A program made the translations under genes and the position numbers. DNA of 38,780 nucleotides from a virus: IMG/VR virus record IMGVR_UViG_3300030103_004972, positions 1-38,780 of that record; one strand, written 5' to 3'. Under the pieces are notes generated by a model. The model was given only the letters and a program-made list of their open reading frames with translations. It was not told where the DNA came from and made no database searches. Each line of letters begins with the position of its first letter. Within the stretch, counting starts at the first letter, position 1. This document shows, piece by piece, positions 3,606-38,780 of the stretch.

Positions 3606-4541
3606 CTAGGCTGTATTGTCAGAGATATACTCCATCGCTTGCTGGGCTAAATGACTGGCCTCGAATAAACTTTGAGAATCGCTTTCCAATGCTTTGATCC
3701 AGCCGTCGATGTAGCTGGCATGGTTCTCAGTTTTGCCACTAATACCATACTTATGGCCTAGCATGACCGAGCCGATCTCAGCTATTAACTCTTCAAAGGC
3801 GTATGACCTAGATCCAAAGTATTCAAACTTGACAATACCGGGCCGGTTGTTTCTGGACTCGGCACCGGTCCAATGCACCAATTCATGCAGCGCTGTCGCC
3901 GTGTAGCCGCTGGGTTTTTTGAACATGGAATAGTTGGGTAGATGGATCATATCTTTGCTCGGTGAATAGTACGCTTTACTCTCGGTAGTATGCTTAACAT
4001 CTACATCTAGGTTAGTGTAGACACTATCCACCCATTGAACGCCAGCATCGGACTGCATAAGCAGCTCCCGAGCTATCGCAGCCTCTATTCTTTTTTGCTC
4101 GGCCTTGGGTAACTGTACATTTTCAGTTTGCTCAATATTGAATATTGGATATTCATTCAGATAACCCACATAGATTTTAACCGGCTTACCGTTGTCGTCG
4201 GTAACAACGCGGCCGTCGTCGTCCTTTTTGTTAAACTCTATAGTTTTAACAAAAACAACGCGAGTAGCCTTTGAGCCTTTGATAACGCTACCTTTGTTTT
4301 TTCTGACATTGTCAAAAGTTAGCCATTGATCGGACTGCCAGCCATTTTTTTCTTTGGCATAAGCAAGTATTGAGATATTGATGCCTTGGTAACTATGGCC
4401 GCTGTAGGCATTGTGATCACCTAAAGACTGGCCAGCGGTCCATGGTCTATTCCATGGATTAACGCCGTCCTTTAATAACTCAAGTATCTCTGATACAACG
4501 CGGTCCCGTATTTTTTTATTTTTTTCTTTTGATTGTTTCAT
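3606..4541 (-). CDS. ArdC-like anti-restriction protein with zincin domain
   Basis: At 311 aa this matches the two-part ArdC family. The N-terminal ssDNA-binding domain (about 1-135) has the typical NPWNRPW, SYQGINIS, WLTFDNVRK and KGSKATRVVF segments. The C-terminal zinc metallopeptidase domain has HELVH (H219-H223) and the downstream FEELIAEIG (250-257) supplying the third metal ligand. Plasmid ArdC proteins protect incoming DNA from host restriction; in a phage an early protective role is likely. The gene has its own terminator and lies at the head of a divergent region facing the plus-strand accessory island. A GGAGAG ribosome site precedes the ATG. The family call is firm; the protective role here is inferred. 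Confidence 0.88.
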   Translation of the reverse strand: MKQSKEKNKKIRDRVVSEILELLKDGVNPWNRPWTAGQSLGDHNAYSGHSYQGINISILAYAKEKNGWQSDQWLTFDNVRKNKGSVIKGSKATRVVFVKTIEFNKKDDDGRVVTDDNGKPVKIYVGYLNEYPIFNIEQTENVQLPKAEQKRIEAAIARELLMQSDAGVQWVDSVYTNLDVDVKHTTESKAYYSPSKDMIHLPNYSMFKKPSGYTATALHELVHWTGAESRNNRPGIVKFEYFGSRSYAFEELIAEIGSVMLGHKYGISGKTENHASYIDGWIKALESDSQSLFEASHLAQQAMEYISDNTA

Positions 4542-9564: not shown

Positions 9565-9783
9565 TTAACGCCCATTTTCATCCCCCTCTTTTTCACGCTC
9601 GGTAAACATATCGTGCCATTTCTTCCCCGAAACAATGCCCAGCTTTACTGCCTTATTATAGGTTGTCCGTGCGACCTCCGATGGGAACGCCACGAAATTT
9701 CTGAGCAATGGGCAACGCATCTTGTCTGCCAGGCGATTAGCCCTTTCATAGTTCGGTATGTATTTGTATTTATCTTCTTTCAT
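9565..9783 (-). CDS. 72-aa protein sharing a motif with the giant virion protein
   Basis: Start ATG at 9783 follows GGAGACAACAA; the longer upstream frame has no ribosome site. The product contains RNFVAFPSEVARTTYN (about 28-43), very like GNFIAFPAETVRTAVN in the 1338-aa virion protein (residues about 884-899). The rest is basic and helical, with an acidic tail. It overlaps the methyltransferase gene by 14 bases. It may be a degraded fragment or a small partner of the virion protein; function is unknown. Confidence 0.55.
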   Translation of the reverse strand: MKEDKYKYIPNYERANRLADKMRCPLLRNFVAFPSEVARTTYNKAVKLGIVSGKKWHDMFTEREKEGDENGR

Positions 9784-10504
9784 TTGTTGTCTCCTTTTTT
9801 TGTCGCACATCAGCAAACAAAGGTGCATCGTTATAAATCCTATTCTTTGCCATTTCTGCATACTCTGGGTTTAATTCTATTCCAACAAACTCTCGACCTA
9901 ACCTCTGACAAACAACCCCTGTTGTGCCACTTCCCATGTAGGGATCAAGCACAGTCTTTGCATCAGGAAACACCGCTAAAATATCTGTAACCATTTGTTC
10001 GGGAAAAGCTCTGGTATGATTACCCCTTGTTCCTACAGGTTTCCATTCCCGCCAATCAAATACATCATGTTTATTAAGAATGTTTTTTAGTTTTGTTTTT
10101 GGGCTTTTTGATAACCAATATAATCTTTCAGTCCAAGGATAAAATCTTATTTTGTCAAAGTTTTGGCTACGGGTTATCCAGACAATTTCCTGTTTGATTA
10201 TAAATTCCGATTTCAATAACCACGCATAAGGAGATATTTGAACTCCTTTTTTTATTCTGTTCTTGTGATTATAAAGCAAACTTCCTTTTTCCTGTAAAAC
10301 CCTAAAACACTCTTTTAAAAAGCATACTTGAACAAATTGATATTTTTCTTCAGGTAAATCATCATCATACGCTTGGTGTCTTTTGTTTCCTGTGTGATGG
10401 TTGTTCCCCAAGTTATAGGGAGGAGAAGTAATTATAAGATCAACAGAACTATCTTTTATTTCTTTCATTACCTCTAGACAATTTCCTGTTTTAATTTCGA
10501 TCAT
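9770..10504 (-). CDS. Beta-class DNA methyltransferase (N4-cytosine or N6-adenine)
   Basis: This 244-aa protein has the amino-methyltransferase motifs in beta order: catalytic TSPPY (26-30) near the N-terminus and the SAM-binding DPYMGSGTTG (187-196) near the C-terminus, followed by FVGIELNPEY. TSPPY favours N4-cytosine, though some N6-adenine enzymes share it. There is no companion restriction endonuclease, so it is a solitary phage enzyme that probably masks sites from host restriction or affects packaging or replication. Its ATG overlaps the primase stop as ATGA. The lower GC content compared with the flanking primase gene suggests later acquisition. Confidence 0.9.
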   Translation of the reverse strand: MIEIKTGNCLEVMKEIKDSSVDLIITSPPYNLGNNHHTGNKRHQAYDDDLPEEKYQFVQVCFLKECFRVLQEKGSLLYNHKNRIKKGVQISPYAWLLKSEFIIKQEIVWITRSQNFDKIRFYPWTERLYWLSKSPKTKLKNILNKHDVFDWREWKPVGTRGNHTRAFPEQMVTDILAVFPDAKTVLDPYMGSGTTGVVCQRLGREFVGIELNPEYAEMAKNRIYNDAPLFADVRQKKETTNERR

Positions 10505-18411: not shown

Positions 18412-19284
18412 ATGAATATTAAATTAAATTCATATTTTTCCGGTGCGGGATTACTAGACATTGGACTACTCAATGCCGGTATCAACATCCAGGCAAGCTA
18501 TGAGCTTGACCCAATCGCCTGCCAGGTGCAACGCGATAACGGTCATAGCGTGAGTCAAATTGACCTCACTCAGAAACTTGTTGAAGATGATGTTCTAGCT
18601 GATGTTCATGCCTACACTTATCCATGCACCAAGTATTCAGCAATCGCTGATATACACGGAACCAGGACAGGCGAAGATTTATTTCTACACGCGTTTAGGC
18701 ACATGGCCATCGCAAGACCAGAAATTTTTATTATCGAGAATGTTCCTGGAATGAGAAAATTTAAGGTGGTAATGGAAGCCATGACAAAACTTCCAGATTA
18801 TTACACTACCACTTTCTGTCCAATCAAATCTGAATTTTGGTTGCCACAAAAGAGAGATCGACTGATCATTATTGGATCTAAGAAAAACTTTAGTTGGCGC
18901 GAACCAAAAAAACGTAGAGCAAAAAAACTCTCTGAGCTTTTACTCAACGAACCTCAGATTGATTATCCAAAGGCATTGACCAATCGAATGAAAGGGAAAT
19001 ATCGTGATCTTCCGATCATCAGTGATCCCGACAAAAACGATATTGCTCCCTGCTGTGTTGCGCATTATTCAAAAGATCGCAGCACCAGGGTAGTGGTTGA
19101 TAAAAGATACCCCCTTGGAGTCCGGCCATACGCCGTTAGAGAGTATGCAAGACTACAAGGTGTTCCAGACAGTTATAGCTTTAATTGCTCAAACAATGAA
19201 GCCTACAAACTGATTGGTAATGGAGTATCCGTGCCGATAGGTGAATGGCTTGGTTCTGAAATAACCAGGTACTTCATCAATTAA
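18412..19284 (+). CDS. C5-cytosine DNA methyltransferase
   Basis: The 290-aa protein has motif I YFSGAGLLDIGLLNAG (8-23), the catalytic Cys in YPCTKYS (C72; PCT where most enzymes have PCQ), ENVPGM (109-114), QKRDR (146-150) and the closing GNGVSVPIG. The target-recognition region between QKRDR and the end is short. It transfers a methyl group from SAM to cytosine C5. A ribosome site GGGAGG precedes the ATG. It is monocistronic between terminators, so its expression is separately timed. It has no cognate nuclease, hence probably protective. Confidence 0.9.
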   Translation: MNIKLNSYFSGAGLLDIGLLNAGINIQASYELDPIACQVQRDNGHSVSQIDLTQKLVEDDVLADVHAYTYPCTKYSAIADIHGTRTGEDLFLHAFRHMAIARPEIFIIENVPGMRKFKVVMEAMTKLPDYYTTTFCPIKSEFWLPQKRDRLIIIGSKKNFSWREPKKRRAKKLSELLLNEPQIDYPKALTNRMKGKYRDLPIISDPDKNDIAPCCVAHYSKDRSTRVVVDKRYPLGVRPYAVREYARLQGVPDSYSFNCSNNEAYKLIGNGVSVPIGEWLGSEITRYFIN

Positions 19285-19671: not shown

Positions 19672-22600
19672 TTAACGGATGCCCAATAGTTTTTCGAGCT
19701 CTTGCTGTCTTAACATAACACCAGCAGAGCTTTTCGGAGCAATCGCGGCCTTTGTTCTTCTGGTCATTCTTGGTTGCGTCGCTGTTGGAATTTGAGGTGG
19801 TCCGCCCACAAAAGATTCTTGGGGCAGAAGAGGTTTAATGTCTTGTATCCAGGCTTGGCGCAATGCGTCTTCCGGGAAGAAAGCAGGTTGTTCCGCGCCT
19901 TCTTTTGACAACGCCTCTCCAATTGCGAACTCGGATGGGAAATACGGGATAAAGGTGCGGTTCATAATTGCTCTTGGGCTCGCAATCTTGGTTCCCTTCA
20001 ATACTTTATATACTTCTTGGTCAGACATCCCCAGTCTTTTTGCGTCCTCGACTGCCATTGATACATCTTTTAATGCCTCGAAGCGGGCTTCATTGGTTTT
20101 TAACAGGGCCTTGACATGTGCTTCCGGGTCCTGAACGTTTGGATTCTTGGCAACCTGTGTGTAAAGCGATGCCGCATCCCGCATCTGTTCTTTTGCATCG
20201 AATGCCCTGAACCTAAGTGTTCTTTCCATGTTGGGTCGAATGGTTTTCAGCCCGGTAAAGGACTCCGCGAGCTGACTGTAAATGTCTGGCTTTCTTCCTG
20301 ACCGAGACAAACCCTGGTCGGTTAGTCCCAAGGAATAAAGGGTTGCTCGTGGAAGGTCTTTTAAAAATGGTCCTTCTTGCCCTGGTTTGAACTTAACAGG
20401 AACCACAGGGGGCGCAAACAAATTAACCCAGTGTGCCAATACCTTACCAGTTTTAATCGCAGCAGAGTCAATTTCCGAATTATAAATAGGACGTGCTGTT
20501 CCGGAAGCATAGGTTACATTTCTTGTAGCGTCCAATATTCCCTGACTCGCAATAGACCAGCCAAAAAAAGGCGTGAGATATTCAGCAAGCGCACCAGGAT
20601 TCTGTTGAGAACCGACAAGCCCTTGCCAAAGTTTTTCATGGAGCTTGTCTCCTCTTTTTTCTCCATTTAAAAATGCATTTAAAACTGCCGCAATGGGCGT
20701 CCGTAAATATTCGTATGGATTGGTGTAGGTGTAGTTGTAAAACTCTACGATGTTGCCATCCTTGTCGGTGCGTATTGGAATGAGGTCTGCATTCTTTTCC
20801 CATGGAGTGGCGAAACTTCTTTTGTAAGCCTGAACCTGTTCATCGCTGGCGCCGGTCATGAACTTTCCAAACTCGTAAGTAGCTTTTGGAGCAGCATACA
20901 TAACCGCCATGTTCCCCATCAATCGACGCATGCCAATCTCCGCAATCTCAGGAACACCGCTGGCAAGCTCATCGATGGCACGCGAGGTTGAGTTGACTGC
21001 TGTTCTGACAGTTTCAGCAGGGAAGGCAATAAAATTACCGAAAGGGCTACGTCTAAGTGACTGAATTATAGAACCAACCTTTGCATAGTTCGGAACCGTA
21101 TCCCTGACAATGGCTGCGCTGATGTCTTCAACGACCTCGGCTTGCACTTCTTTGGAAAGAGCCGACCATTGGCCGCCCTTTTTCTCCAGTTCACGAATGT
21201 TTTTGGGAGAAATGTTTTTGTAGGATCCTTTTGAAATTTTGAAACTTGCGTTTCTTTTTGATGCGTTTTGAAACGCTCGCATCATCCTGCCTTTTTCCAT
21301 CTCCCAACTGAATATTTTCCAGACATCATCAGAGCCTTGGTAGACTTTGGAGAAAAAGTTATTTCTGCTTGCATCGAGAAGTTTAATTGTTTTTTGGGTT
21401 GCGTTGCTCCACGCCCCTGGCTCGGAAGCCTCCAGTGCTCTGGCAGCATCATCAATCACTGCATCTATTTCACGCAACTGCGCTCCAGTATTGACGATCC
21501 CTTTTCTCTGGGCGTTTGCATAATACTTTGCCAACGATCCCTTGTTTGTTCTTTTCAGCGCATCAAACACAATCATGGCAGAGTCCTGCAAAGTTTGGGC
21601 GTTGCCCACATTGCCATTCATGAGTGCAAACAAGGACGCACTGGTTGCGTTTCTGATTTGGGTAATGGGGCTGTAAATGGTTTTGGCTTGTTGTACCAAT
21701 CCTTTGCCTGCCAAAAAGGTTGACCATACTCTGGAGACAACACCTGGTGACTGTTCCAACCAGCCATTCTGGGCGCCGATTAATGCATCCCTTATCCTTT
21801 GCGTGGTTACCTGTCCTGCCAAGCTACCAAACTTTTGAGGTTTGTTCGGAATAATTATTGGATCCCCAAGCTCGTCTAAAAATTGTGGTCTTATGCTTTC
21901 ATCAACCTCATCAATGCTGTTGTAAAGAAACCTTTCCTTGCTGCCAGAATTTATCAAACGGTTGTTTATTCCTGCAACCTCATCCATATATCTGGCGCTT
22001 GCCACCAGCCTTGACAGGTTATCGACCGTGGATCTCGTCTTAAGCATCAGGTCTGGAACTGTTTCTCCAGTAACTTCGCCCAAGAATTTCCTGACGGCAG
22101 GTAAATTATCCAGCTTTCTGTTCTTTAAAATACCAGACTTGATGCCCTCAATTGCAAACTCAGGAGCCATAATGGCGTTGTCGAAATTTCCAGTTTTTAG
22201 CAACCTCGTTAAAAGAGCTTTGCCATCATCAGCAGTAGCTACAACTTTCATTTTCAACAATTCAGCAACCGCTGCATCCCTATCTACTCTAGTGGGAAGA
22301 TAGCGCTCCCCCTTCAACATCGACTTATATGCTCTATAACCGTAGCTTCCCATATTTTTTTCCATCGCTGCCAAATATCCTGGAGACAACAACTCTATTC
22401 CTAGTTTTTTTGAGAGCTCCGCCACTTCTTTCAGTTCCAATGTTAAATCATCAATCTGTTTCCTGGCGGTGTCAACATTTTCAACAAAGCTGGTTCTTGG
22501 TTTCTCAACCTGCTTGTATATCATTTCGCCGGTTTGTTTGTTTCTAAGTTTCGCAACGTATTTTAATGTCCCGTACTGGTTCATGTATTTGTTGTCATAT

Positions 22601-23688
22601 ATTTTCAACAAATTCATGGCGGCGTTCTTTTGAGATTTGTTCGTGCCGTAGAGGGCTGTCCTCAATGCGGAGTCCAACTCTCTCAGTTTTGCATCTCCAA
22701 CCTTGCCGCTTTTGACCAACCAATCATAACCTCCCCATAGGTTCCTCATGTTCGTGTCCAGCAAAGTTTGGTGTTTGTTCAACAGTGCTTGCTTTGAATA
22801 CCTTGCGTTGCTTACCTCGTTTGTTGGAAGGTCGCCTCTTGATCTGAGCTTGGATAAAACTTTATTTGCCGTAGCCCACTTGGTTCCCGCTTCGTATTGT
22901 CCCTGGTTAATTGCTTCGGAAATTCTTTCTCTTTTGTTGCGGGTAAATTTTGCGAGGTTCTGTGTTGTCTCAAGTTTGGACAGTCCTTTGGCCGCACCGG
23001 CAACCGGAATCTTTATTCCTTTCCACAGGGTGGGCAACGCCAACAACATGGCTGCCCCTGTGCCAGCGGTAACGAGACGCTTTCTTAGTCTGTCCCCAGC
23101 AGTGATTTGTTCATCAAGAACTTTCTCGTCATCCTCCCTCGATGCCGAAGTGTTAAAAAATCCCTCATCAATAAACTCGTCAAAAATGCCAAAGGTTGGA
23201 ACATCCTGGCCTGTAGCCAAATAATCCGCCGCAAAGGTGGGTGCAACCGTGTGTTTTAACCAACTCGGTTTTGTTTTATAAACAGCTTCTTTAGGTGCAA
23301 ATAGCCGTTTCTTTGTAGCCTTTTTGGTAATGGCTTTTTTAACCATTTTTTGTGCAACCCCGGCAGGAGCGCCGAAACGAAACAGAAGCTCGGATACTTG
23401 ACCCGCTGTGCTTACTGGCTTGTCAGGCTTTATCCGTTCAAAACTTTTTTCAACTTCTGAGGTGAAGTCCGTACCGGCAGTAAGATCCACAAGTGAAGTT
23501 GCAAACTCTATGGGACCCTCAACCAAACCCTCAATGGCACCCCTAACTGGACCTTGAACAAGCGTTTCTCCTAGAGTGGAAAAGTCTCCCTCTTGTTCTT
23601 TTCGATAGCGTTCAGCAGTTCTCTTGGCAACCTCTGGGTCGTTGGTCTTTATATAAACAACCTTGTTTCCGACTAGAACGGGAATCAT
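19672..23688 (-). CDS. Giant virion protein, 1338 aa (probably internal or ejected)
   Basis: This is the second largest gene. The N-terminus has VQGPVRGAIEGLVEGP, resembling the 539-aa protein near TerL. Long helical stretches dominate, with YSPITQIRNATSASLFALMN in the middle, SPFGNFIAFPAETVRTAVN (about 881-899) and a possible membrane-interacting segment after it (RLMGNMAVMYAAPKATYEFG). No lysozyme, transglycosylase or polymerase motif was recognised. Size, position in the late operon and helical content match the large internal or ejection proteins of podovirus-like marine phages, which is the basis of the call. The GNF-AFP motif recurs in the 72-aa protein at 9565-9783. Confidence 0.6.
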   Translation of the reverse strand: MIPVLVGNKVVYIKTNDPEVAKRTAERYRKEQEGDFSTLGETLVQGPVRGAIEGLVEGPIEFATSLVDLTAGTDFTSEVEKSFERIKPDKPVSTAGQVSELLFRFGAPAGVAQKMVKKAITKKATKKRLFAPKEAVYKTKPSWLKHTVAPTFAADYLATGQDVPTFGIFDEFIDEGFFNTSASREDDEKVLDEQITAGDRLRKRLVTAGTGAAMLLALPTLWKGIKIPVAGAAKGLSKLETTQNLAKFTRNKRERISEAINQGQYEAGTKWATANKVLSKLRSRGDLPTNEVSNARYSKQALLNKHQTLLDTNMRNLWGGYDWLVKSGKVGDAKLRELDSALRTALYGTNKSQKNAAMNLLKIYDNKYMNQYGTLKYVAKLRNKQTGEMIYKQVEKPRTSFVENVDTARKQIDDLTLELKEVAELSKKLGIELLSPGYLAAMEKNMGSYGYRAYKSMLKGERYLPTRVDRDAAVAELLKMKVVATADDGKALLTRLLKTGNFDNAIMAPEFAIEGIKSGILKNRKLDNLPAVRKFLGEVTGETVPDLMLKTRSTVDNLSRLVASARYMDEVAGINNRLINSGSKERFLYNSIDEVDESIRPQFLDELGDPIIIPNKPQKFGSLAGQVTTQRIRDALIGAQNGWLEQSPGVVSRVWSTFLAGKGLVQQAKTIYSPITQIRNATSASLFALMNGNVGNAQTLQDSAMIVFDALKRTNKGSLAKYYANAQRKGIVNTGAQLREIDAVIDDAARALEASEPGAWSNATQKTIKLLDASRNNFFSKVYQGSDDVWKIFSWEMEKGRMMRAFQNASKRNASFKISKGSYKNISPKNIRELEKKGGQWSALSKEVQAEVVEDISAAIVRDTVPNYAKVGSIIQSLRRSPFGNFIAFPAETVRTAVNSTSRAIDELASGVPEIAEIGMRRLMGNMAVMYAAPKATYEFGKFMTGASDEQVQAYKRSFATPWEKNADLIPIRTDKDGNIVEFYNYTYTNPYEYLRTPIAAVLNAFLNGEKRGDKLHEKLWQGLVGSQQNPGALAEYLTPFFGWSIASQGILDATRNVTYASGTARPIYNSEIDSAAIKTGKVLAHWVNLFAPPVVPVKFKPGQEGPFLKDLPRATLYSLGLTDQGLSRSGRKPDIYSQLAESFTGLKTIRPNMERTLRFRAFDAKEQMRDAASLYTQVAKNPNVQDPEAHVKALLKTNEARFEALKDVSMAVEDAKRLGMSDQEVYKVLKGTKIASPRAIMNRTFIPYFPSEFAIGEALSKEGAEQPAFFPEDALRQAWIQDIKPLLPQESFVGGPPQIPTATQPRMTRRTKAAIAPKSSAGVMLRQQELEKLLGIR

Positions 23689-26003: not shown

Positions 26004-27416
26004 TCAACCGCCTCTCATTTTCTTTGCCATCTGTTGGCCAAGTGCTTGTTGCAGATACATCTGCCTTGCGCCTGCCAATCGTTGCTGTTCAGGGTCCATC
26101 ATCGTTTGTTGTGGTGCGCCCTGGTTCATTAATGCCATCAAGCCAATGCCTCTGTTCGCCTCGGCATTGGTTACAAATTCTCCATCGGACAACATCGCCG
26201 GGATGTCATCACTGGTTTCGGTGCCAGGTCCCTCGGTCAAGCCGTTGCGACGAACAAAAGCACCATCTGCTACATATTCTACACCAGGAACATTATCGTA
26301 TCCTAGGTTTTGTATCAAAGATCCCTGTGGTGGTCCTGTCGTAAATGAGAATGGACCGCCTTGGGCTACGTTATATTCTTTGGTTGGTTCCGAGGCAAAC
26401 GGGTAGTAAATAGGGGCTTGGTTTGGGTCTAAATAAATAGGCTGTCCAACACCGCCTCCAATCATGCTTGCATAATCAGCGCTTCTACCAGCTGGATCCC
26501 AACCGGCACTACCGAGGATTCCTCCGCCTCCGCCTCCGCCACCACCGTTAGAAGTCTGCGAAGAACCGGCTCCGAACAATCCTAACAAAGCAAGGATGCC
26601 TTTCAGCTTGTCCCAGTCAAAGCCTTCATCATCTTCCTCTTTGTCTGCTTGAGAATCTGCATCAATGTCTACTTCTTTGCCGGTTGCTACGTCTATCAAT
26701 ATTTCATTCACTGGATCCCAATAACGATCGTCATCATCTTCGTCTTCTTCTTCTTCACCTTCGCCACCAAACCACGGCCATCCTAATAAGTCCAATATTG
26801 ATGATTGGGAGTCTTCATCTACTTCAGCTGTTGCTTCAGCTGTTGCTGCTGCTTGTGCTGCATCTGCCGCCGCCTGTGCATTTGCTGCTGCTTGTGCATC
26901 TGCCGCCGCCTGTGCATCTGCCGCTGCTTGTGCATCTGCTGTACTCGTTGTGTCTGTTGTACCTGTTGTGCCGGATCCCTGTCCACCATACGGCCACCCA
27001 GGAGGCCAAAAACCGTAGTAAGGATCGTAAGAATCGTAGCCTTCCCCACCATCTCCAGTATCTGTCACATCACCTGTAACCTCCAAATCATCTGGAATTT
27101 GGTTTGCATTAGCATCAACAGAAGAAGTTCCAGAACTTGCTGTAAGCACACCGCTTGCTATCAAGTCTTCCATGGTGGGAATGTTTTCAGTGTTTATTAA
27201 AGGATCAGCTCCTGCTGTATAAGCGGCAATACCTGTAGGGAAATCGCCCTGGAACCCGCTTAAATAATCAGTGCCCGTTGCGCCAGACTGAGCATACCCC
27301 ATATAGTTTAACCAATCTTGCCACGCAAGATCCTCTTCAGAGGGACCGCCCCCCATGCCAGTTACATTAAAAACTGAGGCCCAAGGAAAAGCGCCGCCGT
27401 AAATATTTTCAGTCAT
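26004..27416 (-). CDS. Low-complexity virion protein, 470 aa
   Basis: Start ATG at 27416 overlaps the upstream TAA (TAATG) and follows GGGGAGGTGG, so the earlier ATG at 27431 is rejected. The middle carries tandem ADAQAAADAQAA repeats (roughly 26820-26940), then an acidic region, a run of nine glycines, and near the C-terminus TSDDIPAMLSDGEFVTNAEA, a motif typical of phage tail and tape-measure C-termini. The C-terminus is Gln/Met-rich. Probable tail-associated structural protein; exact role unknown. Confidence 0.6.
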   Translation of the reverse strand: MTENIYGGAFPWASVFNVTGMGGGPSEEDLAWQDWLNYMGYAQSGATGTDYLSGFQGDFPTGIAAYTAGADPLINTENIPTMEDLIASGVLTASSGTSSVDANANQIPDDLEVTGDVTDTGDGGEGYDSYDPYYGFWPPGWPYGGQGSGTTGTTDTTSTADAQAAADAQAAADAQAAANAQAAADAAQAAATAEATAEVDEDSQSSILDLLGWPWFGGEGEEEEDEDDDDRYWDPVNEILIDVATGKEVDIDADSQADKEEDDEGFDWDKLKGILALLGLFGAGSSQTSNGGGGGGGGGILGSAGWDPAGRSADYASMIGGGVGQPIYLDPNQAPIYYPFASEPTKEYNVAQGGPFSFTTGPPQGSLIQNLGYDNVPGVEYVADGAFVRRNGLTEGPGTETSDDIPAMLSDGEFVTNAEANRGIGLMALMNQGAPQQTMMDPEQQRLAGARQMYLQQALGQQMAKKMRGG

Positions 27417-29347
27417 TAGCCACCTCCCCATGTGGCAACTGGGGATTCATCCCAAGAGCCTGTTTGTTTGTAGTGGGCATAAATATCACTCCAATTAGCG
27501 GGTCGTCCTTTAGGATCTGCGTCAAAATATTGAACATCTTGTCCCATCGCACTTCTTTCAGCTATAGTGCCATATCCCACTCCTCTAGTCCCAAAGTTTT
27601 TGGCAGCCATCATGTCTCTGTAGCTCTCTCCGGTTCCATACGTTTGCATGAAGGTATCGGCATAATATTTGGCTTGCTCTGGCGGATAGCCTTGATCCAA
27701 GTAGGATTGTTCATTTCCGAACATGTCATATAAGTCAGCTCTCTTGTTTATTTTGTTTTGTTCTTTTCTTTGCATGCGTTGGCTTTGGCCATAAGTGCTG
27801 CCTGCTCCTCTGGCTTTTCCGGGGCCGCCTACATTATACATTGCATCGTAAACCGGCATCATCATCATTGCAGAGGCTCCTGTCATTCCTGCTCGCATGT
27901 CTTGTCCCGGAAGGGTTTTGAAAGTTTGACCAGTATCTGGATCATATCCTGGAATTGCGTAACCCTCAGTAGCTGTTTGAAATTCATCTGTTGACATGTT
28001 CTCGATTTTGTTCATCATTAGTTCAATTTCATCTCGTTCTGTTGGAGATGCATTGGCCCAAGCATTATTAAGCTCACTTAGAAGACGATCCCTTGATCCC
28101 ACTCCTTCCCACTTATTAGCACCCCATTGACCCACGTTTTTAAAAAGATTCCATATGCCTCCTGTGGCTGCACCAAGCCCTATATCTGCCCAAGGCATAT
28201 CCTTAATAGTTTGTCCAAATTCGCTCATAGCGCTTGGATATGGTGTATAAGGTTGAGTATTAAAAATGGGGTGTAATTGTGGATCTCCTTGATAATATGG
28301 TGAAAAAGGATTTGCTTGAGCAGCAGCAACTGCAGCAGCATCCCCTCTCTCGTATGGATTAATCAGTGGGGCCGATGCACCACCGCCTCTAGCACCACCG
28401 CCTCCAGCTAGATTGACAATGCCTCCTTCAGCCATCTTATTCCTGGATCTAAGTGGGCCCCTCATGGCGCTTATCCATGCCTTTTTTTCCATGTAATCTG
28501 GGGGTGCCCGAAATTCCCATTGCCTAGTTTCTTTGTTATATCTTTTGTTGCGGGCTTTCCAAGGACTATACTCTTCCGAAAAATTTCCAAACTGTTTCTC
28601 AAGATTGCCACTAAATTCCCCGTGTGGCGCTGTTCTTATTCGCCAACCTAACCTCAAAGGATCCAAAGTAACCCATTGTTCTTCTTGAACTTCAGGAGGC
28701 AGCGCATAACCTGTTTCGTCAATTGGAGCCTCGGCAGCAATCACCCCTCCTTCAAATAACGGGTCTTCTTGGACTCCGGTAAAAAAAGGCATTGCCAACC
28801 CCGGACCTGTGGCAGCACTGCTTTCACGCAATTCTCTGGCATTTTGAAGAAGGTCGCTGATGCCTCCGGTAATTGTTCCGAACACATCGCCTCCGAGAAT
28901 ATCTCTTGCCGCTGTGTCTGAGCCTGCATCTACAGCCTCTGCAAATTGATCCAGTTGGGCATCTGATGGAGGCTGTGCCATGCCTGTGGTGTCAGCAACA
29001 TTTACTCTGCCCAGGGTTTCAGCGATACCAGAACCAAAACCACGGAATCTTTTTTTAAGCCTTTCAAGCCTTAATCCTCTAAGCGCCTGGTTGATTCGTG
29101 TTTTTCTCTGGCTGTTTTCTCCGCTAAATCCTAATGATCTTTTTTCTTCTTTCAGTTCCTGTATCTGTTGGTTGTAGTCATCCAGCTCCCAGTCGTCTGT
29201 ATCGAAACCAGAACTGAGAGAGCCGCCCATTCTCAGATTGACAATGCCTCTGTCGTAATAGTTTTGAGTGTCTTGAAGTTGCAATAGCTTATCAATCCCA
29301 CCAGGAGTGGGGGTAATGCCTAATTGTTCAATGAGCTCTACTTTCAT
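27416..29347 (-). CDS. Virion protein, 643 aa
   Basis: Contains RGIVNLRMGG near residue 34, EGGIVNLAGGG near residue 310, and alternating acidic helices and Gly/Tyr/Pro-rich stretches (PFSPYYQGDPQLHPIFN). No catalytic motif is visible. It shares GGIV-type motifs with the 539- and 769-aa proteins, consistent with a common assembly role. The ribosome site is weak, but a promoter-like sequence lies upstream at 29400-29405. Confidence 0.6.
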   Translation of the reverse strand: MKVELIEQLGITPTPGGIDKLLQLQDTQNYYDRGIVNLRMGGSLSSGFDTDDWELDDYNQQIQELKEEKRSLGFSGENSQRKTRINQALRGLRLERLKKRFRGFGSGIAETLGRVNVADTTGMAQPPSDAQLDQFAEAVDAGSDTAARDILGGDVFGTITGGISDLLQNARELRESSAATGPGLAMPFFTGVQEDPLFEGGVIAAEAPIDETGYALPPEVQEEQWVTLDPLRLGWRIRTAPHGEFSGNLEKQFGNFSEEYSPWKARNKRYNKETRQWEFRAPPDYMEKKAWISAMRGPLRSRNKMAEGGIVNLAGGGGARGGGASAPLINPYERGDAAAVAAAQANPFSPYYQGDPQLHPIFNTQPYTPYPSAMSEFGQTIKDMPWADIGLGAATGGIWNLFKNVGQWGANKWEGVGSRDRLLSELNNAWANASPTERDEIELMMNKIENMSTDEFQTATEGYAIPGYDPDTGQTFKTLPGQDMRAGMTGASAMMMMPVYDAMYNVGGPGKARGAGSTYGQSQRMQRKEQNKINKRADLYDMFGNEQSYLDQGYPPEQAKYYADTFMQTYGTGESYRDMMAAKNFGTRGVGYGTIAERSAMGQDVQYFDADPKGRPANWSDIYAHYKQTGSWDESPVATWGGG

Positions 29348-29414: not shown

Positions 29415-29738
29415 TCACAAATCAATTGATATCGCACCATTGGTGCTGACCGACAGCGTGCCGACAGCCCCGGTTGCGCTCAATCCATTGTCTGATCCTG
29501 AGTAAATCTCGTTCCACTTGGCACCATCGTAGACTTGCAGGCTCTTGGCGTTGAGGTTCCAGATGACATCACCGGCATTGAACTTGTTCTGATTCATGGT
29601 GGTCAGTGTGTATTGTGGTGTTTCCGTGGGGTCAAAAGAACCTAGGTTCAGCTGTAAAATGCGAATCATCCTGTTGTAAAGATCAGGAGAAACCTCATTC
29701 ATAGCGTTTGGAAGTTGCGTTTCAAGCAATCTAGCCAT
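29415..29738 (-). CDS. Conserved virion-associated protein, 107 aa
   Basis: Begins MARLLETQLPNAMNEVSPDL and has FNAGDVIWNLNAKSLQVYDG, a beta-rich segment, then a Ser/Thr/Gly-rich C-terminus ending ISIDL. I recall similar proteins in marine podovirus-like phages next to the 600-aa-class tail protein. It is abutted by that gene here. Function unknown, probably a small tail component. Confidence 0.6.
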   Translation of the reverse strand: MARLLETQLPNAMNEVSPDLYNRMIRILQLNLGSFDPTETPQYTLTTMNQNKFNAGDVIWNLNAKSLQVYDGAKWNEIYSGSDNGLSATGAVGTLSVSTNGAISIDL

Positions 29739-31621
29739 CAGCGCCTACCATTCATCTTGATATCCATACGCGTTGCCCCAACCCTAAAACCCAGCCCCTG
29801 ACGTAAACCAGCCGTGTTGTCGTCATCAGACTCAAATCTCAACACCACCTGGCGTCCTCTTGCTCTTGTGTTTATTCTTGTAGTTGAAGATGTTATCGAT
29901 GTCGTTGAAGAGGTGCTTAAACTTTCTGCCGGCCAGTTGCGTTTCTTCAACACCACATTCATGGCTGCGTTTGAGTTTGATCCAGTGAACTTTATATCCG
30001 GGATAATGCGATTGACAAAGCTGAACTGTTCCCCTTCTTCAATATCGAGACTACTCGATTCTATATAAACGTTGTCCATGGGCGAGCCATCTGCATCGTA
30101 ACCAGTTTCTTGTTTGTAAAGATAGTTGGAGGTGTCAGTGCCGGTAGCCCTCGGATAATCTTCGATTCCCTCATCCAACCACGCGTGTCGTGTTAGCTGA
30201 CCGATTGACCAAGTGTTGTCAACATAGTTGTAAATGACGTAACGGTCTATCTCGGTTGAGCTACTTGATGGATAAAACCAACCAACCTCATCAAAGGCTT
30301 TGTTTAAAAAGCCGAACACTTTATAAGCCTGAGTAATGTTGATGTTGTTAAAAACATAATAATGCACTGAAGAAGGCAATGGGTTGACAGAACCGTTGTA
30401 AAAATAGAACCCCTTGAGATCCATCCAGAATATCCCTTCTGGTGCATTGATGACCGCGTTGGGACCAATGAGTCCCACCCCTTCATTGATAAGGTTGTTG
30501 CTGAAAGTATAGGGCGATCCAACAAACGCCATAGAATAAAGCGCAGAATCCGTCCACACTAGAGTTTCCTGACGAGCCCTTAATGCTCCAACAATCAAGG
30601 AACCTGATGACAACCTGAAAGACCCGGCTGTGTTGGTCAGCTTTGGCTCCCATTCGGGTGCGTTTTCCTGATCGCACCAACAAATAAACATGGGATCAAC
30701 TGATCCTGTCCTGGCAGTTCCGCCTGCATTCAATGGATCTGCACCGAAACAAATGATATGGCGATCAATGTCGCTGACCAAAATCTGAAACGCTTTGGTT
30801 GGCGGAAGGTTGGCACCGCTTAAATCAGAAAACGAAACAGCTCTAGTGCTTAAACCATTAGTGTTGTCCCAATAATAGATGCCCCCTGATCTTGGGTTTA
30901 TAAGCAAGTCCTCACCAAAATTGTCCTGGGTCCATAGCCTAAGTTGAGAGGTATCAGACAAAGCTGAAACTTCTCCCCAGCCTCCAGCACCCCAAGTACC
31001 GGCTCCCCAACCGGAACCTTCCACATAAACATCTAGTCCGACATTAATTTGATAAGCCCCAACTACACTGGAACCACCATTGCCGCTGTCGCTGCTATTC
31101 GCTGTTACTTCATCGCCATCTGTATCTTTGGCTTCAATGGTATAGCTGTTGACGTTAACAATAGTGGCTATCTGATATTCTTGATTGAGTACAGTAGCCG
31201 TAATTAATCCGCCTAAAGTTACTGCACCGCTAAAAGTAACAAAATCATTTTTAACAGCTCCATGTGCAGTATCGGCTACAGTAATTGTAGCGTCTCCATC
31301 AGAAGCAGAAAAAGTCACATCGCCCGCAGATGTAGTGGTTCTAATTGGGGTCACGTCATTAAAAGCGTTTCCAGACTCTATGTAATATTTATAGGTTGTT
31401 CCAATCCCCAAGTATTTAGTGGCCGCCAAATTAACCCAGCCATGAAGCGCCCTGCCCGTGCCAAGATAGGTGTTTGTGGTAGCTTTTTCCCAACCGCCTA
31501 TCTTCTCCGGCAAGCCTTTGCGAAAGCGCACCAAGTTGGCGTCGTACCAACCACCTTCATTGCTGTAATCAGTGCCTTCCCGGTTGATTCCTGGTTTGAG
31601 AATGTATTTTGCTAATGGCAT
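29738..31621 (-). CDS. Beta-rich tail/DNA-stabilisation protein, 627 aa
   Basis: The N-terminus (AKYILKPGINREGTDYSNEG, WYDANLVRFRKGLPEKIGGW) and repeated blade-like segments such as GRALHGWVNLAATKYLGIGT and YWDNTNG resemble the beta-propeller tail proteins related to the P22 gp10 packaged-DNA stabiliser. The middle contains an inserted Ser/Thr/Asp-rich domain (about 95-190). In a podovirus-like particle it would plug or extend the neck below the portal. Family resemblance is by pattern only. Confidence 0.6.
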   Translation of the reverse strand: MPLAKYILKPGINREGTDYSNEGGWYDANLVRFRKGLPEKIGGWEKATTNTYLGTGRALHGWVNLAATKYLGIGTTYKYYIESGNAFNDVTPIRTTTSAGDVTFSASDGDATITVADTAHGAVKNDFVTFSGAVTLGGLITATVLNQEYQIATIVNVNSYTIEAKDTDGDEVTANSSDSGNGGSSVVGAYQINVGLDVYVEGSGWGAGTWGAGGWGEVSALSDTSQLRLWTQDNFGEDLLINPRSGGIYYWDNTNGLSTRAVSFSDLSGANLPPTKAFQILVSDIDRHIICFGADPLNAGGTARTGSVDPMFICWCDQENAPEWEPKLTNTAGSFRLSSGSLIVGALRARQETLVWTDSALYSMAFVGSPYTFSNNLINEGVGLIGPNAVINAPEGIFWMDLKGFYFYNGSVNPLPSSVHYYVFNNINITQAYKVFGFLNKAFDEVGWFYPSSSSTEIDRYVIYNYVDNTWSIGQLTRHAWLDEGIEDYPRATGTDTSNYLYKQETGYDADGSPMDNVYIESSSLDIEEGEQFSFVNRIIPDIKFTGSNSNAAMNVVLKKRNWPAESLSTSSTTSITSSTTRINTRARGRQVVLRFESDDDNTAGLRQGLGFRVGATRMDIKMNGRR

Positions 31622-33799: not shown

Positions 33800-34123
33800 C
33801 TAACTCGGTATCACATAACTAGGATCAGGCACAGGATTATCAGGCGGATTGGTAATCACGCTGTCATATTGGCTGTCGAATATATCATCCCACTGGCTTA
33901 TCGGGCAAAGTGCAGTCAATTGTGCCAATGTCCATGAGCCTTCCGCTTTAGGCGTGAAGTTCACTGTACCATCTATACCAGTCGCTGGGATTGATGTCAT
34001 AAAGCTAGAGGTATAATAAGTAGCATCCTCTCCTTCCTCGTATTTCATTTCAAAATCCCATTGCTGGACTTTGCTGCTTTTGTTATAGGGGATTGCTCCC
34101 GTTAAAGTTTTCGTCACTGCCAT
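33800..34123 (-). CDS. Small virion-associated protein, 107 aa
   Basis: The product starts MAVTKTLTGAIPYNKSSKVQ and continues QWDFEMKYEEGEDATYYTSS, then a Thr/Pro region and ends in a Pro-rich tail (PPDNPVPDPSYVIPS). Such proteins next to fibre genes are common in marine phages and may be fibre chaperones or attachment pieces. Two bases separate it from the fibre gene. No named domain was recognised with confidence. Confidence 0.55.
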   Translation of the reverse strand: MAVTKTLTGAIPYNKSSKVQQWDFEMKYEEGEDATYYTSSFMTSIPATGIDGTVNFTPKAEGSWTLAQLTALCPISQWDDIFDSQYDSVITNPPDNPVPDPSYVIPS

Positions 34124-34125
34124 TT

Positions 34126-37100
34126 TTATTCTCCGTTATTTAATTGTTGTTTTAATTGCTCGACTTCTGCCGAGAGTTCTTGGATTGCTTTGGTTAGGAT
34201 AGGTATTAACGCTGTGGCTGATAAAGCCTGTGTTCCATCATGCGAATCGCTCCAAAATTGAGCATTGTCTTTAACATCCTCTCTATCGTCTATAACTTCT
34301 TTAACTTCTTGTGCTATAAAGCCGTAATAATGTTCTTCTGTATTGCAGTTTGCTCTATCTTCTGAATCTTTTTTATAACCAGCTAATTCTTCTGGAACAT
34401 CTTTTCTTTTTTTCCATTTAAAACTTACAGGTCTTAGTTCATTTATAAAAGATAAACCAATAGTTGAATCCTCTATTTTTTCTTTTAATCTTACATCGGA
34501 ACTTGCTGCCCATGTAGTTGTACCAACTTCACACCTTGTATAAGTAGCAGTTCCATTACCTATAGTAATATAAGGCGTAGCAGTATCTACTGTTGACCTA
34601 GCATCATAACCTATAACTATTTGATTAGGATTGGTAGCCACTACGGGTCTAGAATATGCACCTAGAAACGTACACGCATCAGCAGTCGTTGTTCCAGTAA
34701 GATTATAGTGACCTGCTTGATAACCAACCGCAGTATTTCCATCCCCAGTTGTTAGGCTCCCCAAAGCAGTTTGACCAACACTCGTATTGGCTGTGCCTGT
34801 AGTGTTTGCTAATAAAGATGCATAACCAACGGCTGTGTTATTAGATGCTGTGGTATTTGCATACAATGCTTGATAACCAAGGGCTGTATTATAACCACCA
34901 GTACAAGATTGTAAGGAAGCTTTACCAACCGCTGTATTGCCCGCTGTTGAAACAAGAGCAGATAAAGCACCCTCACCTATAGCCACATTATTAGAGCCAT
35001 CGTCTGATGCATCTAAAGTTAAATAACCAATAGCAAGGTTGCTATTTCCTGTTGTATGTACAGCAAGTGCTTCTCTACCAATTGCTATGTTGTAAGACCC
35101 TGTGGTGTTAGCACCTAAAGCACTGTGACCCACTGCTGTATTCTGTGTACCTGTAGTGTTTGCGTCTAGAGCATAAGCACCCACTGCTGCATTGCCTGTG
35201 CCTGTGGTGTTTGCTGCTAAAGCACTTGCACCTATAGCCGTGTTATTTGATGCTGTGGTATTAGCGAACAAAGCTGAATCACCTACAGCTACATTAGATG
35301 CACCTGTGGTATTTGTTCCTAAGCTAGATTTACCAATGGCAATATTGTTGGATGCCGTAGTATTTGCATCTAACGCATATGCTCCTATGGCTACATTTTC
35401 TGTACCTGTGGTGTTCGCTGTTAAAGCCGCTCTACCTATTCCTACATTTGCTGCTCCTGTTGTGTTTGCTGCTAAAGCCCCATAGCCAGCAGCAGTATTA
35501 CCATCGGCAGTTGTATTTGCTGATAAAGCAAATGTTCCTAACGCTACATGATAGTGACCAGTCGTATTTGCATCTAATGCATAAGCACCCATTGCTATGT
35601 TGTTTATGCCTGTCGTATTTGCTCCTAAAGCACCTAAACCAATTCCAGTATTAGCAGAACCTGTCGTGTTTGCTCCTAAAGCACTTAAACCAACGGCTGT
35701 GTTGTTTGATGCGGTGGTGTTGGCATCTAAAGCATTAGCTCCAACAGCAGTATTAGATGCACCTGTGGTGTTTAGTAATAAAGCACTGCTACCAATCCCT
35801 GTATTGTTACTTGCTGTAGTTGTGGCTGTACCTGCTTCATACCCAAGAAAAACATTATAAGTTCCGTCTGTTATTGCATCTCCTGAATAATTGCCTATGG
35901 CAATATTTTGAGCACCTGTAGTGCTTGTCACTAGAGCGTTTAGTCCAATACCAATATTATTGGCTCCAGTAGTACTCGATGATAGAGCATTATAGCCAAG
36001 TGCTGTGTTTCCGTTTGCAGTGGTATTAGCATCTAGTGTATTAGCACCTACAGCAGTATTATAAGTACCTGTGGTGTTTGCTCTTAAAGCAGTATAACCA
36101 AGGGCTGTGTTGTTTGAAGCTGTGGTGTTAGCATCAAGTGCTGCATCACCCATTGCGGTGTTATTATTTCCTGTTGTATTAGTGTCTAAAGCACTTTTAC
36201 CAACTGCTGTGTTTGAAGCACCTGTGGTGTTTGCTGATAAAGAAGCATAACCAACAGCCGTGTTATCGTTTGCGGTTGTGTTAGCATCTAAAGCATAAGC
36301 ACCAACAGCTACATTTAGAGTACCTGTGGTATTTACGCCCATAGCGTGTCGCCCTACAGCAGTATTAAGTGCGCCTGTGGTATTGGCTGTTAGAGCATCG
36401 TAACCAATAGCAGTACCACTATCTGCTGTGGTGTTTGCATCTAGTGCCTCTCTACCAACAGCTACATTACTGGCTCCTGTGGTATTAACCAACAAAGCAT
36501 TATAACCAACAGCCGTGTTACTAGAGGCTGTCGTATTTGCTCCAAGAGCATCCGAGCCTATCGCTACGTTTGCACCACCCGTCGTATTAGCATCTAAGGC
36601 TTGTCTGCCTATACCTACATTATCGTTTCCTGTGGTAGTTGCTGCCATTGCGTTTTGCCCTATAGCAACATGATTTGTACCTGTGGTGTTTGCGGTTAAA
36701 GAATTATAACCAACTGCGGTGTTGTTATCTGCTGAAGTGTTTGAGCCTAAACTTGATATACCCACAGCGACATTATAATCACCGCCAACGTTAGCATCTA
36801 ATGATGCTCCGCCTATTGCTACGTTATATGCACCTGAAGTGTTGGACAATAATGCATTGTCCCCAATCGCTGTATTAGACGTTCCATTAGTGTTTGCGGA
36901 TAAGGCATATTTACCAACACCAACATTATTTGCTCCACTTGTATTAGCATCTAAAGAATACGCTCCTATTCCTATATTATTTGCACCTGTATTAGAACCA
37001 CCGATAGCATCATGCCCAATAGCTATGTTTGAGTGTGCTGTTGTATTTCCATCTAAAGCACCATAGCCAATAGCTACATTTTCTGTTCCTGTGGTGTTTG

Positions 37101-38780
37101 CTGCTAAAGACTTATAACCCACTGCTGTGTTGTTTGAAGCGGTTGTGTTAGCGTTTAATGCTTCAGTACCAACAGCAGTATTACTAGCCCCTGTGGTATT
37201 AGTTTTTAAAGAACTTTTTCCTATAGCAGTATTATTATCTGCTGTAGTGTTATTCTCTAAAGCAGAAATACCAACAGCAGTATTATAATCCCCTGTAGTA
37301 TGGTCTAGCATAGTTTTTCTGCCCAATGCAGTATTGCCAGTGCCTGTGGTGTTTACCAATAAAGCACTAGAACCCACAGCCGTATTGTTACTCGCAGTCG
37401 TATTCGCTCCTAAAGCGTTATCTCCAATAGCGGTGTTCTCGGCTCCAGTCGTATTAGCATCGGCAGCGTTTGAGCCTACGGCTACGTTGTCTGTACCTGT
37501 AGTGTTTGCTGTTAAAGCATCATAACCAACTGCGGTGTTATTATCTGCTGTGGTGTTTGCGTCTAAAGCAAACATTCCAATGGCGGTATTGTAAGTACCA
37601 GTAGTGTTTACCAATAAAGCGCCCCTACCTATTGCGGTATTTGATGTTGCCGTAGTGTTTGCTTTTAAAGCATCTAATCCAACTGCGGTGTTTGAGCCGC
37701 CTGTAGTATTCGCAGCTAGTGCATCTTTACCAACAGACACATTGTTTGTACCTGTGGTGTTTGCTACCAGAGCATTATAACCAACACCAGTATTATTAGC
37801 AGCGGTATTAACCTTTAAAGAATACACTCCAATAGCGGTATTTTGAGAAGAGGTAGCATTTGTTTTTAAGGCTTCAAAACCAACTGCAACATTATTATCT
37901 CCAGTAGTAATCGCAGTACCTGCTTCGTCACCTACAACGACATTATAATTACCACCACTTGCAATGCTGTTACCTGCGTTGACACCTGCTCTGAAGTTAC
38001 TTGTTCCTGCTGAAGCCGTAATTATATCTGCACCGTCTGCGTAAGTTACGTCCGCTGCAAAGTTGACAGCGCCATCTACATCTACGATGTCTAGGTTAGT
38101 CGTGCCGTCTATATCAATGTCTCCAGCAACTGTAAGTCCAGCAGCACCAACTAGCTTTAAATCATCTGCGGATTCATCCCAAAGCATATAAGCCCCAGAA
38201 GTTGCCCCGAAAAACTTTACGTCATAGCCTGTGTTATCGACTCCAACAGTGAGTGAACTATATTGCAGAACGCCATCAGCCGATTCATCCCACAGCCAGT
38301 ATTTTCCAGAGGTTGCCCCGAACAGTTTAACGTCATAGCCTGTATCATCAACACCGACTGTGACTTTGCCGCCAATGTTTATGTCTGCCAGTGCATCGAC
38401 TACTGCCGCGCCAGCGCCAGCACCATCCATATAAACCATTCTGGTTTCGCCATTGGGGATATTAACACTTGCCCCACTTCCTTGCGATATGGTTATGATT
38501 TGTGAGCCACTGGTCGCGTTTTCAATAATCTGAATACGGCTGACCGTATTTGGTGCCATAGTAAGAGTTCTGGTTGCGGTTAAGGAACCGCTTGATGTGA
38601 CTTTGAAATAGAAAGCGCGAGCAGGGTCTGCTGCGCCATCAGCTACAGTGGTTGTTGCGTCTGCGTCACTGGAAAAAGACTCTTGAGTTGCATAACTCAG
38701 CGCCTCTCCGATGAGCGATAGGTTCGTATTAGTTGATGTGCCCCACGTTCCCGATTCATCACCCGTGGTAATTTCCTTTA
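34126..38780 (-). CDS. Giant repetitive tail fibre with S74 chaperone domain (5' end outside window)
   Basis: The frame stays open through position 38778 with no stop, adding 73 codons before the ATG at 38559 that might be mistaken for the start, so the gene is 5'-truncated and at least 1550 aa. The upstream part (TTGDESGTWGTSTNTNLSLI) is typical of phage fibre N-terminal regions. From about 37966 to 34687 there are about 64 repeats of 17 residues (NTAxGxxALxxNTTGxx), like YadA-type beta-roll repeats. The C-terminus is a peptidase S74 intramolecular chaperone with SSDVRLKEKI and HYYGFIAQEVKEVI, ending in a coiled coil (EVEQLKQQL). It trimerises and self-cleaves, and probably binds the host surface. 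Confidence 0.9.
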   Translation of the reverse strand, partial: KEITTGDESGTWGTSTNTNLSLIGEALSYATQESFSSDADATTTVADGAADPARAFYFKVTSSGSLTATRTLTMAPNTVSRIQIIENATSGSQIITISQGSGASVNIPNGETRMVYMDGAGAGAAVVDALADINIGGKVTVGVDDTGYDVKLFGATSGKYWLWDESADGVLQYSSLTVGVDNTGYDVKFFGATSGAYMLWDESADDLKLVGAAGLTVAGDIDIDGTTNLDIVDVDGAVNFAADVTYADGADIITASAGTSNFRAGVNAGNSIASGGNYNVVVGDEAGTAITTGDNNVAVGFEALKTNATSSQNTAIGVYSLKVNTAANNTGVGYNALVANTTGTNNVSVGKDALAANTTGGSNTAVGLDALKANTTATSNTAIGRGALLVNTTGTYNTAIGMFALDANTTADNNTAVGYDALTANTTGTDNVAVGSNAADANTTGAENTAIGDNALGANTTASNNTAVGSSALLVNTTGTGNTALGRKTMLDHTTGDYNTAVGISALENNTTADNNTAIGKSSLKTNTTGASNTAVGTEALNANTTASNNTAVGYKSLAANTTGTENVAIGYGALDGNTTAHSNIAIGHDAIGGSNTGANNIGIGAYSLDANTSGANNVGVGKYALSANTNGTSNTAIGDNALLSNTSGAYNVAIGGASLDANVGGDYNVAVGISSLGSNTSADNNTAVGYNSLTANTTGTNHVAIGQNAMAATTTGNDNVGIGRQALDANTTGGANVAIGSDALGANTTASSNTAVGYNALLVNTTGASNVAVGREALDANTTADSGTAIGYDALTANTTGALNTAVGRHAMGVNTTGTLNVAVGAYALDANTTANDNTAVGYASLSANTTGASNTAVGKSALDTNTTGNNNTAMGDAALDANTTASNNTALGYTALRANTTGTYNTAVGANTLDANTTANGNTALGYNALSSSTTGANNIGIGLNALVTSTTGAQNIAIGNYSGDAITDGTYNVFLGYEAGTATTTASNNTGIGSSALLLNTTGASNTAVGANALDANTTASNNTAVGLSALGANTTGSANTGIGLGALGANTTGINNIAMGAYALDANTTGHYHVALGTFALSANTTADGNTAAGYGALAANTTGAANVGIGRAALTANTTGTENVAIGAYALDANTTASNNIAIGKSSLGTNTTGASNVAVGDSALFANTTASNNTAIGASALAANTTGTGNAAVGAYALDANTTGTQNTAVGHSALGANTTGSYNIAIGREALAVHTTGNSNLAIGYLTLDASDDGSNNVAIGEGALSALVSTAGNTAVGKASLQSCTGGYNTALGYQALYANTTASNNTAVGYASLLANTTGTANTSVGQTALGSLTTGDGNTAVGYQAGHYNLTGTTTADACTFLGAYSRPVVATNPNQIVIGYDARSTVDTATPYITIGNGTATYTRCEVGTTTWAASSDVRLKEKIEDSTIGLSFINELRPVSFKWKKRKDVPEELAGYKKDSEDRANCNTEEHYYGFIAQEVKEVIDDREDVKDNAQFWSDSHDGTQALSATALIPILTKAIQELSAEVEQLKQQLNNGE
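34687..37966 (-). repeat. About 64 tandem 51-bp coding repeats in the fibre
   Basis: Counted by eye from the translation: 64 units, nearly all exactly 17 residues, two or three of 16-18. Units with NTTG and NTTA linkers often alternate. Conservation is at the protein level; neighbouring DNA copies differ at many third positions, so the array is old or under diversification rather than freshly expanded. Such an array can change length by recombination. Confidence 0.85.

Follow-up and report, generated by a model that had tools for sequence, protein, structure and literature searches.

The question raised by the right end of the window (the whole stretch of viral DNA analysed, an IMG/VR record of 38,780 bp given as linear) is what kind of protein is encoded by its last gene, in which a short unit is repeated about 64 times, and whether such an array changes its length in nature. 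The open reading frame was located at 34126-38778 on the minus strand (1550 codons and a stop), with its 5' end open at the contig edge. Counted from the first ATG, the frame 34126..38559 (-) gives 1477 aa, and it is open for 73 codons further with no stop among them. The initial annotation regarded this ATG as internal, the protein as longer than 1550 aa and the contig as truncated within the gene; all three statements hold, as the frame runs to the contig end and the related proteins begin ahead of it. L007, L008 and L009, which are 90% identical to the window fibre over residues 1-228, as well as L005 and others, start with MATYVNDLRL or MASTYVN(N/D)LRL, 10 or 11 residues ahead of window codon 1. 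The ATG at 38559 is therefore internal and about 10 residues (MATYVNDLRL) are absent. Judged from these relatives, the contig appears to stop at codon 11 of the fibre gene and the full-length fibre is likely ~1560 aa. The idea that the genome is circular, with the fibre continuing at the left end of the contig, was rejected, since IMG/VR gives the record as linear and the first 600 bases, translated in the three minus-strand frames, lack the N-terminal motif.

The earlier assignment of the protein as a fibre agrees with its PHROG matches, phrog_4636 (tail spike, E 1.9e-194) and phrog_23837 (virion structural protein, E 2.9e-207); the repeats probably supply much of the score of these matches. 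Taken together, the protein is very likely a modular, presumably receptor-binding tail fibre with a docking N-terminus, two modules, a rod of 64 YadA-like coils and a self-cleaving S74 domain, belonging to a family in which the array is altered by recombination.

The array occupies residues 279-1364 (34687..37944, -) and has the consensus NTAVGYNALDANTTGTN; it is supported by the unit chain, the structural model and the fold match. The array is a single chain of 64 units, of which 62 have 17 aa and two have 16 aa. A position-specific score made from the array units recovered all 64 in one chain, whereas 200 shuffles of the array residues resulted in no more than 13 hits, with no chain longer than 3, so that the previous count of about 64 copies of a 17-residue unit was correct. 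The identity autocorrelation was 0.492 at lag 17, compared with a median of 0.089 over lags 1-59.

The mean pairwise amino-acid identity among the 62 units of 17 residues was 51%, and the identities at the three codon positions were 0.62, 0.67 and 0.40. Where two units had the same amino acid at a four-fold site, their third bases agreed in 39.1% of comparisons, 34.0% being expected from composition. The longest exact DNA repeat in the fibre gene was 22 bp. No clear trend of unit identity with distance was detected over 56 contiguous units and lags 1-20 (maximum absolute z 2.4 of 40 values). A recent tandem duplication in the window array was rejected, as there were no near-identical units and no lag stood out. 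The near-random synonymous sites, the missing distance trend and the 22-bp maximal repeat indicate that the array is probably old and maintained by protein-level selection. No close relative of the window array itself was found in the viral-contig scans.

The codon usage of the units was considered separately. Among the 10 four-fold phases of the window array, an excess of third-base identity was observed at phases 4, 5, 8 and 14, and weakly at phase 16. In all 7 arrays examined, those of HTVC111P and HTVC112P included, GCT was the most frequent codon at phase 8 and ACA at phase 14, and the third positions varied widely at the other phases of these arrays. This preference has its limits, as GCT makes up only 10 of 20 codons at phase 8 of L003 and two of the arrays, L002 and L114, are related.

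The fold of the array was approached with an AlphaFold2 model of residues 1077-1550 (14 sequences, single chain), which had a mean pLDDT of 79.6 and a pTM of 0.63. In the last part of the array, a strand was modelled approximately every 17 residues. The best Foldseek match in the PDB was the head of the trimeric autotransporter BpaC (E 0.011), followed by MyRF ICA, and none of the 92 matches reached E 0.001. With VIA-align on 264 chains, BpaC (7o23) was ranked first with Z 22.1, 310 aligned residues and an rmsd of 4.7, these values referring to a one-chain model. The other YadA-like heads CbpF, AtaA, BoaA and EibD had Z values of 14.6, 13.2, 12.6 and 12.0, respectively. Beta-solenoids outside the YadA type scored as well: curli CsgA 17.6, a ryegrass ice-binding protein 14.7 and YdcK 14.0, with the LpxD, GlmU and LpxA entries at about 10-13. 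The beta-roll guessed in the initial annotation is borne out by the predicted model and its match to solved YadA-like heads, and a beta-roll or solenoid fold of the array is well supported at the level of modelling. Since other beta-solenoids score too, the YadA-like head is the best but not the sole reading of the modelled fold.

The predicted beta-roll is common to the array and to the heads of BpaC, BoaA, EibD and AtaA. The coil of a YadA-like head has about 14 residues, whereas that of the window array has 17. In contrast to the YadA-like adhesins, the window fibre is expected on the virion; the Pfam YadA head repeat profile was not listed for it at E up to 0.1, and no C-terminal outer-membrane anchor was found in the Pfam scan, the C-terminus being an S74 domain. 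The single fibre sequence matched no solved structure in the PDB at E up to 1. In bacterial adhesins, ligands of the host are bound by YadA-like heads, and by analogy the array itself could be an adhesive, receptor-binding surface instead of a spacer shaft. The same is suggested by a pelagiphage fibre whose YadA-like part under-recruits reads, which is taken as host-recognition variability in PMC3909814. The strong constraint at most consensus positions over the window array suits a structural rod, yet positions 6, 7 and 10 are variable. On balance, the adhesive array is regarded as rather unlikely, and a stiff rod of 64 YadA-like beta-roll coils, expected to be a homotrimer, is preferred. With the usual rise of 0.48 nm per beta coil, such a rod would be ~30 nm long.

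A linker at residues 1365-1426 (34501..34686, -; defined by sequence and model) leads from the array to a Peptidase_S74 intramolecular chaperone at 34126..34500 (-), found by Pfam, profile and Foldseek, which the initial annotation had overlooked. Residues 1427-1498 match PF13884 with an E-value of 1.6e-11 and 44.8 bits, the cut-off being 22. Within the SDxRxK motif (S1427...K1432), the S, D, R and K are present in every one of the 14 aligned sequences. Searched with the profile of 14 related C-termini, the PDB yielded four sequences with E no higher than 0.1: MyRF ICA 7dc3 (1.9e-8), a distal long tail fibre subunit 6f45 (2.1e-4), a putative tail fibre protein 8jov (3e-4) and CA3 in 7ar9 (0.041), the last being aligned to the repeats. 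The MyRF ICA domain was also the Foldseek match of the C-terminus with a probability of 1.00, and the S and K of the motif align to it. The Pfam match and the motif are common to the endosialidase-type chaperones; however, those sit on an endosialidase, whereas the S74 domain of the window sits on a beta-roll fibre.

We take the S and K of SDxRxK to be the exact self-cleavage residues. The chaperone would drive the folding of the trimer and then cut itself off before S1427; this predicted cleavage would free 124 residues and leave a mature chain of ~1436 residues. Self-release of S74 domains through a conserved Ser and Lys, and their occurrence in tail fibres, spikes and other proteins, are described in PMC7824862. 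A C-terminal chaperone that is removed by self-cleavage is also present in T5 pb1, likewise a long lateral fibre (PMC12750041). Two further very long fibres with an SDxRxK end were noted, L003 (1862 aa) and L096 (1708 aa); the 31 units of L003 begin only at residue 1171.

At the opposite end, residues 1-132 of the fragment (38383..38778, -; about 10 more lie beyond the contig end) form the putative virion-attachment part, which is kept in the relatives starting with MATYVNDLRL and would dock the fibre to the virion. Its model was poor, with a mean pLDDT of 53.6. Residues 27-132 weakly resemble phage spike or connector domains (Solidus tailspike Z 7.0, CBA120 TSP4 Z 5.8, T4 gp9 Z 5.0), as well as other proteins (6o38 Z 6.0, StcE Z 4.9). 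Due to the quality of the model, naming of the N-terminal fold was rejected. The N-terminal part is followed by two VGVDxTGYDVKxFGATSGxYxLWDESAD modules, recognised by sequence (38134..38370, -), of which up to 6 copies were counted among related fibres. A connector conserved in L005 (residues 216-278; 37945..38133, -) joins them to the array. In L052/L053 the window-type N-terminus (79% DNA identity over 710 bp) occurs on a fibre without the array and with an S74-type motif near its end.

Whether shaft length varies at this locus was assessed with the gene of a 627-aa virion protein (phrog_3287; 29738..31621, -) as the synteny anchor. At least 80 loci with this protein were fetched, and the 46 with at least 2.4 kb upstream were scanned on the same strand. 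A fibre-like ORF was present in 24 of these, L153 had only a 213-aa ORF, and in 21 nothing was recognised by the criteria used. The distance between the fibre and the 627-aa gene was 2.5 kb in the window and varied up to ~8 kb among the matches listed. The small gene directly 3' of the fibre (33800..34123, -) is kept in L120 (84% identical) and L134 (51%). With L142 and L182 left out, 22 of the 24 fibre-like ORFs were examined further, and a chain of at least 3 units was present in 19 and lacking in 3. Seven fibres upstream of the 627-aa gene were complete among the matches listed: L134 with 74 units (chains of 29, 12 and 33), L160 with 61, L194 with 31, L189 with 30, and L133, L188 and L180 without units. 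The shaft, earlier described as very long, is at the long end of this range but not exceptional in view of L134 and L160. The earlier suggestion that its length varies is valid for the relatives, which carry from 0 to 74 units and differ by whole-unit blocks, but not for the window array, where no recent change was seen. The further proposal of the initial annotation, that shaft length tunes contact with the host, is kept here as a hypothesis. A different organisation was observed in L194, L156 and L158, where 72-residue super-period arrays start at residues 391, 201 and 347, respectively; each chain in them is short, with 3 to 5 units (usually 4), and most starts are 72 residues apart.

Fibres of the window's kind are already known, also from marine phages. 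Relatives were found at 54 loci in the protein scan of viral contigs, at 47 in the C-terminal scan and in 124 phage records with tblastn. Ten phage records were opened and their units counted: HTVC111P 31, HTVC112P 29, Venkman 33, P-SSM2 35, CRP-1 24, CRP-7 22, the uncultured LR756500 26, AG-345-E02 35, AG-345-L05 72 (longest chain 8) and SPO1 10 (longest chain 3). In the first six of these, the window's unit type lies in genes annotated as tail or adhesion genes. The Pelagibacter phages HTVC111P and HTVC112P have the same 17-residue unit, and the match extends to query residue 1543, into the S74 domain; however, they have about half of the window's units at 39-43% identity, and since the match begins at query residue 224 or 358, their N-terminus is not that of the window.

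These counts bear on the possibility that the 64 units are an assembly artefact, that is, an array of another length misjoined from reads. Contig ends are indeed frequent here: 17 of 29 fibres of the N-terminal family, several of them near-duplicate contigs, and 17 of the 24 fibre-like ORFs upstream of the 627-aa gene (among the matches listed) run off the contig. However, the 22-bp longest exact repeat and the nearly randomised synonymous sites of units averaging half-identical in protein make a collapse of the array unlikely. In addition, L134 and L160 hold both fibre ends on one contig, arrays of 22 to 35 units occur in six isolate phages and 10 units in SPO1. The artefact is thus considered highly improbable, and the frequent contig ends are likely explained by variation of the fibre gene.

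The part of greatest interest concerns the relatives, where near-identical contigs show in-frame differences of array blocks; these are candidates until confirmed by reads. L134 and L135 are 99.56% identical over 9982 bp from inside the fibre array onward, whereas the proximal fibre is a chain of 29 units in L134 and mostly unit-free sequence in L135. By contig name they come from samples 3300030098 and 3300030329, and L152, from a third sample, has the distal fibre in common with them at 97%. The position 1974 nt in L134 was rejected as an exact switch point, as it is the edge of the BLAST match. Similarly, L114 and L118 (both 3300028925) are 99.43% identical over 6.5 kb from the array onward and differ in the proximal array; L118 contains stretches resembling L002 units 25-26 and ~13-17, in reversed order relative to L002.

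A length difference was found in L004, L006, L010 and L014, which carry the L002 fibre minus ten units (L002 units 8-17). The DNA identity is 99.8% between L002 units 19-43 and L004 units 9-33 and 96.1% over units 1-6; the N-terminal parts are 94-97% identical. At the ten-unit junction lies a hybrid unit that combines L002 units 7 and 17, and these two have 12 identical bases in common at that point. L014 departs from the L004 sequence after unit 16. Upstream of the fibre, the DNA of L002 is 66-70% identical to that of L004, L006, L010 and L014, and L006 is 68% identical to L004, L010 and L014, which agree with each other at 93-99%. Nearly the same fibre gene (L002, L004, L006) is thus carried on backgrounds with 66-70% identical upstream DNA, and, as far as can be read from the contigs, the whole gene has probably moved between backgrounds by horizontal exchange. 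Because the L002 and L004 backgrounds are diverged (~66%), this pair displays fibre exchange together with a length change. Between the window and L002, no significant collinearity of unit order was found at three gap costs (at gap 4: observed 323.8, null mean 287.2, null maximum 353.4).

The nine contigs with block differences (L002, L004, L006, L010, L014, L114, L118, L134 and L135) might be assembly chimeras and not real recombinants. All nine are metagenome contigs from phages other than the window's own, five of them from sample 3300028925 by name, and the junctions fall in conserved unit DNA. Yet the parent units at the L002/L004 junction have 12 identical bases in common, with a tie interval of 15 bp, the ten-unit junction is found both in sample 3300028925 and in sample 3300028550, and L134 and L135 come from different samples. 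Chimeras are accordingly judged improbable. The closely related fibre genes appear to differ by whole unit blocks through natural change in shaft length and content, and recombination between units, which in the wider family would add, remove or exchange whole blocks in frame, would be the cause.

Six switch points were mapped, two of which are the same L114/L118 junction seen from both sides. In unit codons they lie at 12-17 (tie interval), 11-12.7, 12-12.7, 15.7, 15.7 and ~14.3 (converted from reversed coordinates), every one in or adjoining the ANTTG segment (codons 11-15). As the cases are few, not independent and placed in a conserved segment, this clustering is a lead and not a test. On conservation of the segment at the DNA level the picture is mixed: phase 14 within it shows an excess of third-base identity and phases 11, 13 and 15 show none. 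A more specific scheme is possible, though we would give it less than an even chance: the array may be a natural recombination platform with exchange of units at one fixed phase, at or adjoining ANTTG (typical DNA GCAAACACCACAGG). Near-identical phages would then make their shafts longer or shorter or exchange blocks of them, always in frame, diverged phages would trade shafts, and several haplotypes would occur per sample, the type of the N-terminal anchor being kept.

Several published observations are related to this fibre type. Mizuno et al. 2014 (PMC3909814) presented a pelagiphage fibre with YadA-like (3S6L_A) and S74 domains and an under-recruiting distal part. Like the window fibre, it has a conserved N-terminus, repeats, a YadA-like region and S74, with variability in its distal part; unlike it, that phage belongs to another group and has a T7-type N-terminal domain. 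The section of that paper on the fibre describes neither a 64-unit array nor a comparison of unit blocks. A YadA-domain structural protein is reported in virions of a cyanophage (PMC9146016), and YadA domains in structural regions of pelagimyophages (PMC7029224). Differences of bacterial trimeric autotransporters in length and repeat frequency are explained by recombination and duplication in PMC7688925. PMC9004378 cites a 1996 paper whose title states that the T4 host range is expanded by duplications of a small tail-fibre adhesin domain. In the openly licensed literature, no paper was found on unit-block exchange in the window's fibre type, on Hep_Hag together with phage tail fiber, or on repeat number together with host range.

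The genome context was compared with Pelagibacter phage HTVC027P, to which the terminase is 60.9% identical. The putative tail protein gp69 of HTVC027P is 30% identical to the window fibre N-terminus over 116 residues. The G+C content is 45.7% in the window and 34.9% in the first 50 kb of HTVC027P, and due to this gap a SAR11 host is not implied. The left end of the contig (1-3461) contains the terminase and a 540-aa gene, and the right end (38780) the fibre. As the PHROG scan of 16 window proteins named no capsid protein, the two contig ends may flank the part of the genome that is missing. An anti-restriction protein (phrog_7245) and two DNA methyltransferases were noted at 3606-4541 (-), 9770-10504 (-) and 18412-19284 (+), respectively. 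The structural gene run includes a 1338-aa protein (19672-23688, -) with no PHROG match at E up to 0.1 and no Pfam match above cut-off. A 475-aa protein (26004-27431, -) has a low-complexity AQAAADAQ stretch and a C-terminus matching the ends of tape-measure families.

The choice of the cells to which a phage attaches depends in part on its tail fibres. With blocks gained, lost or swapped in frame, the length and content of the shaft could change quickly; if such block exchange is real, the reach of the fibre and the content of its array would evolve without new genes, which would also help to explain why contigs end so often in the fibre gene. The natural length variants among the relatives make the question of fibre length testable.
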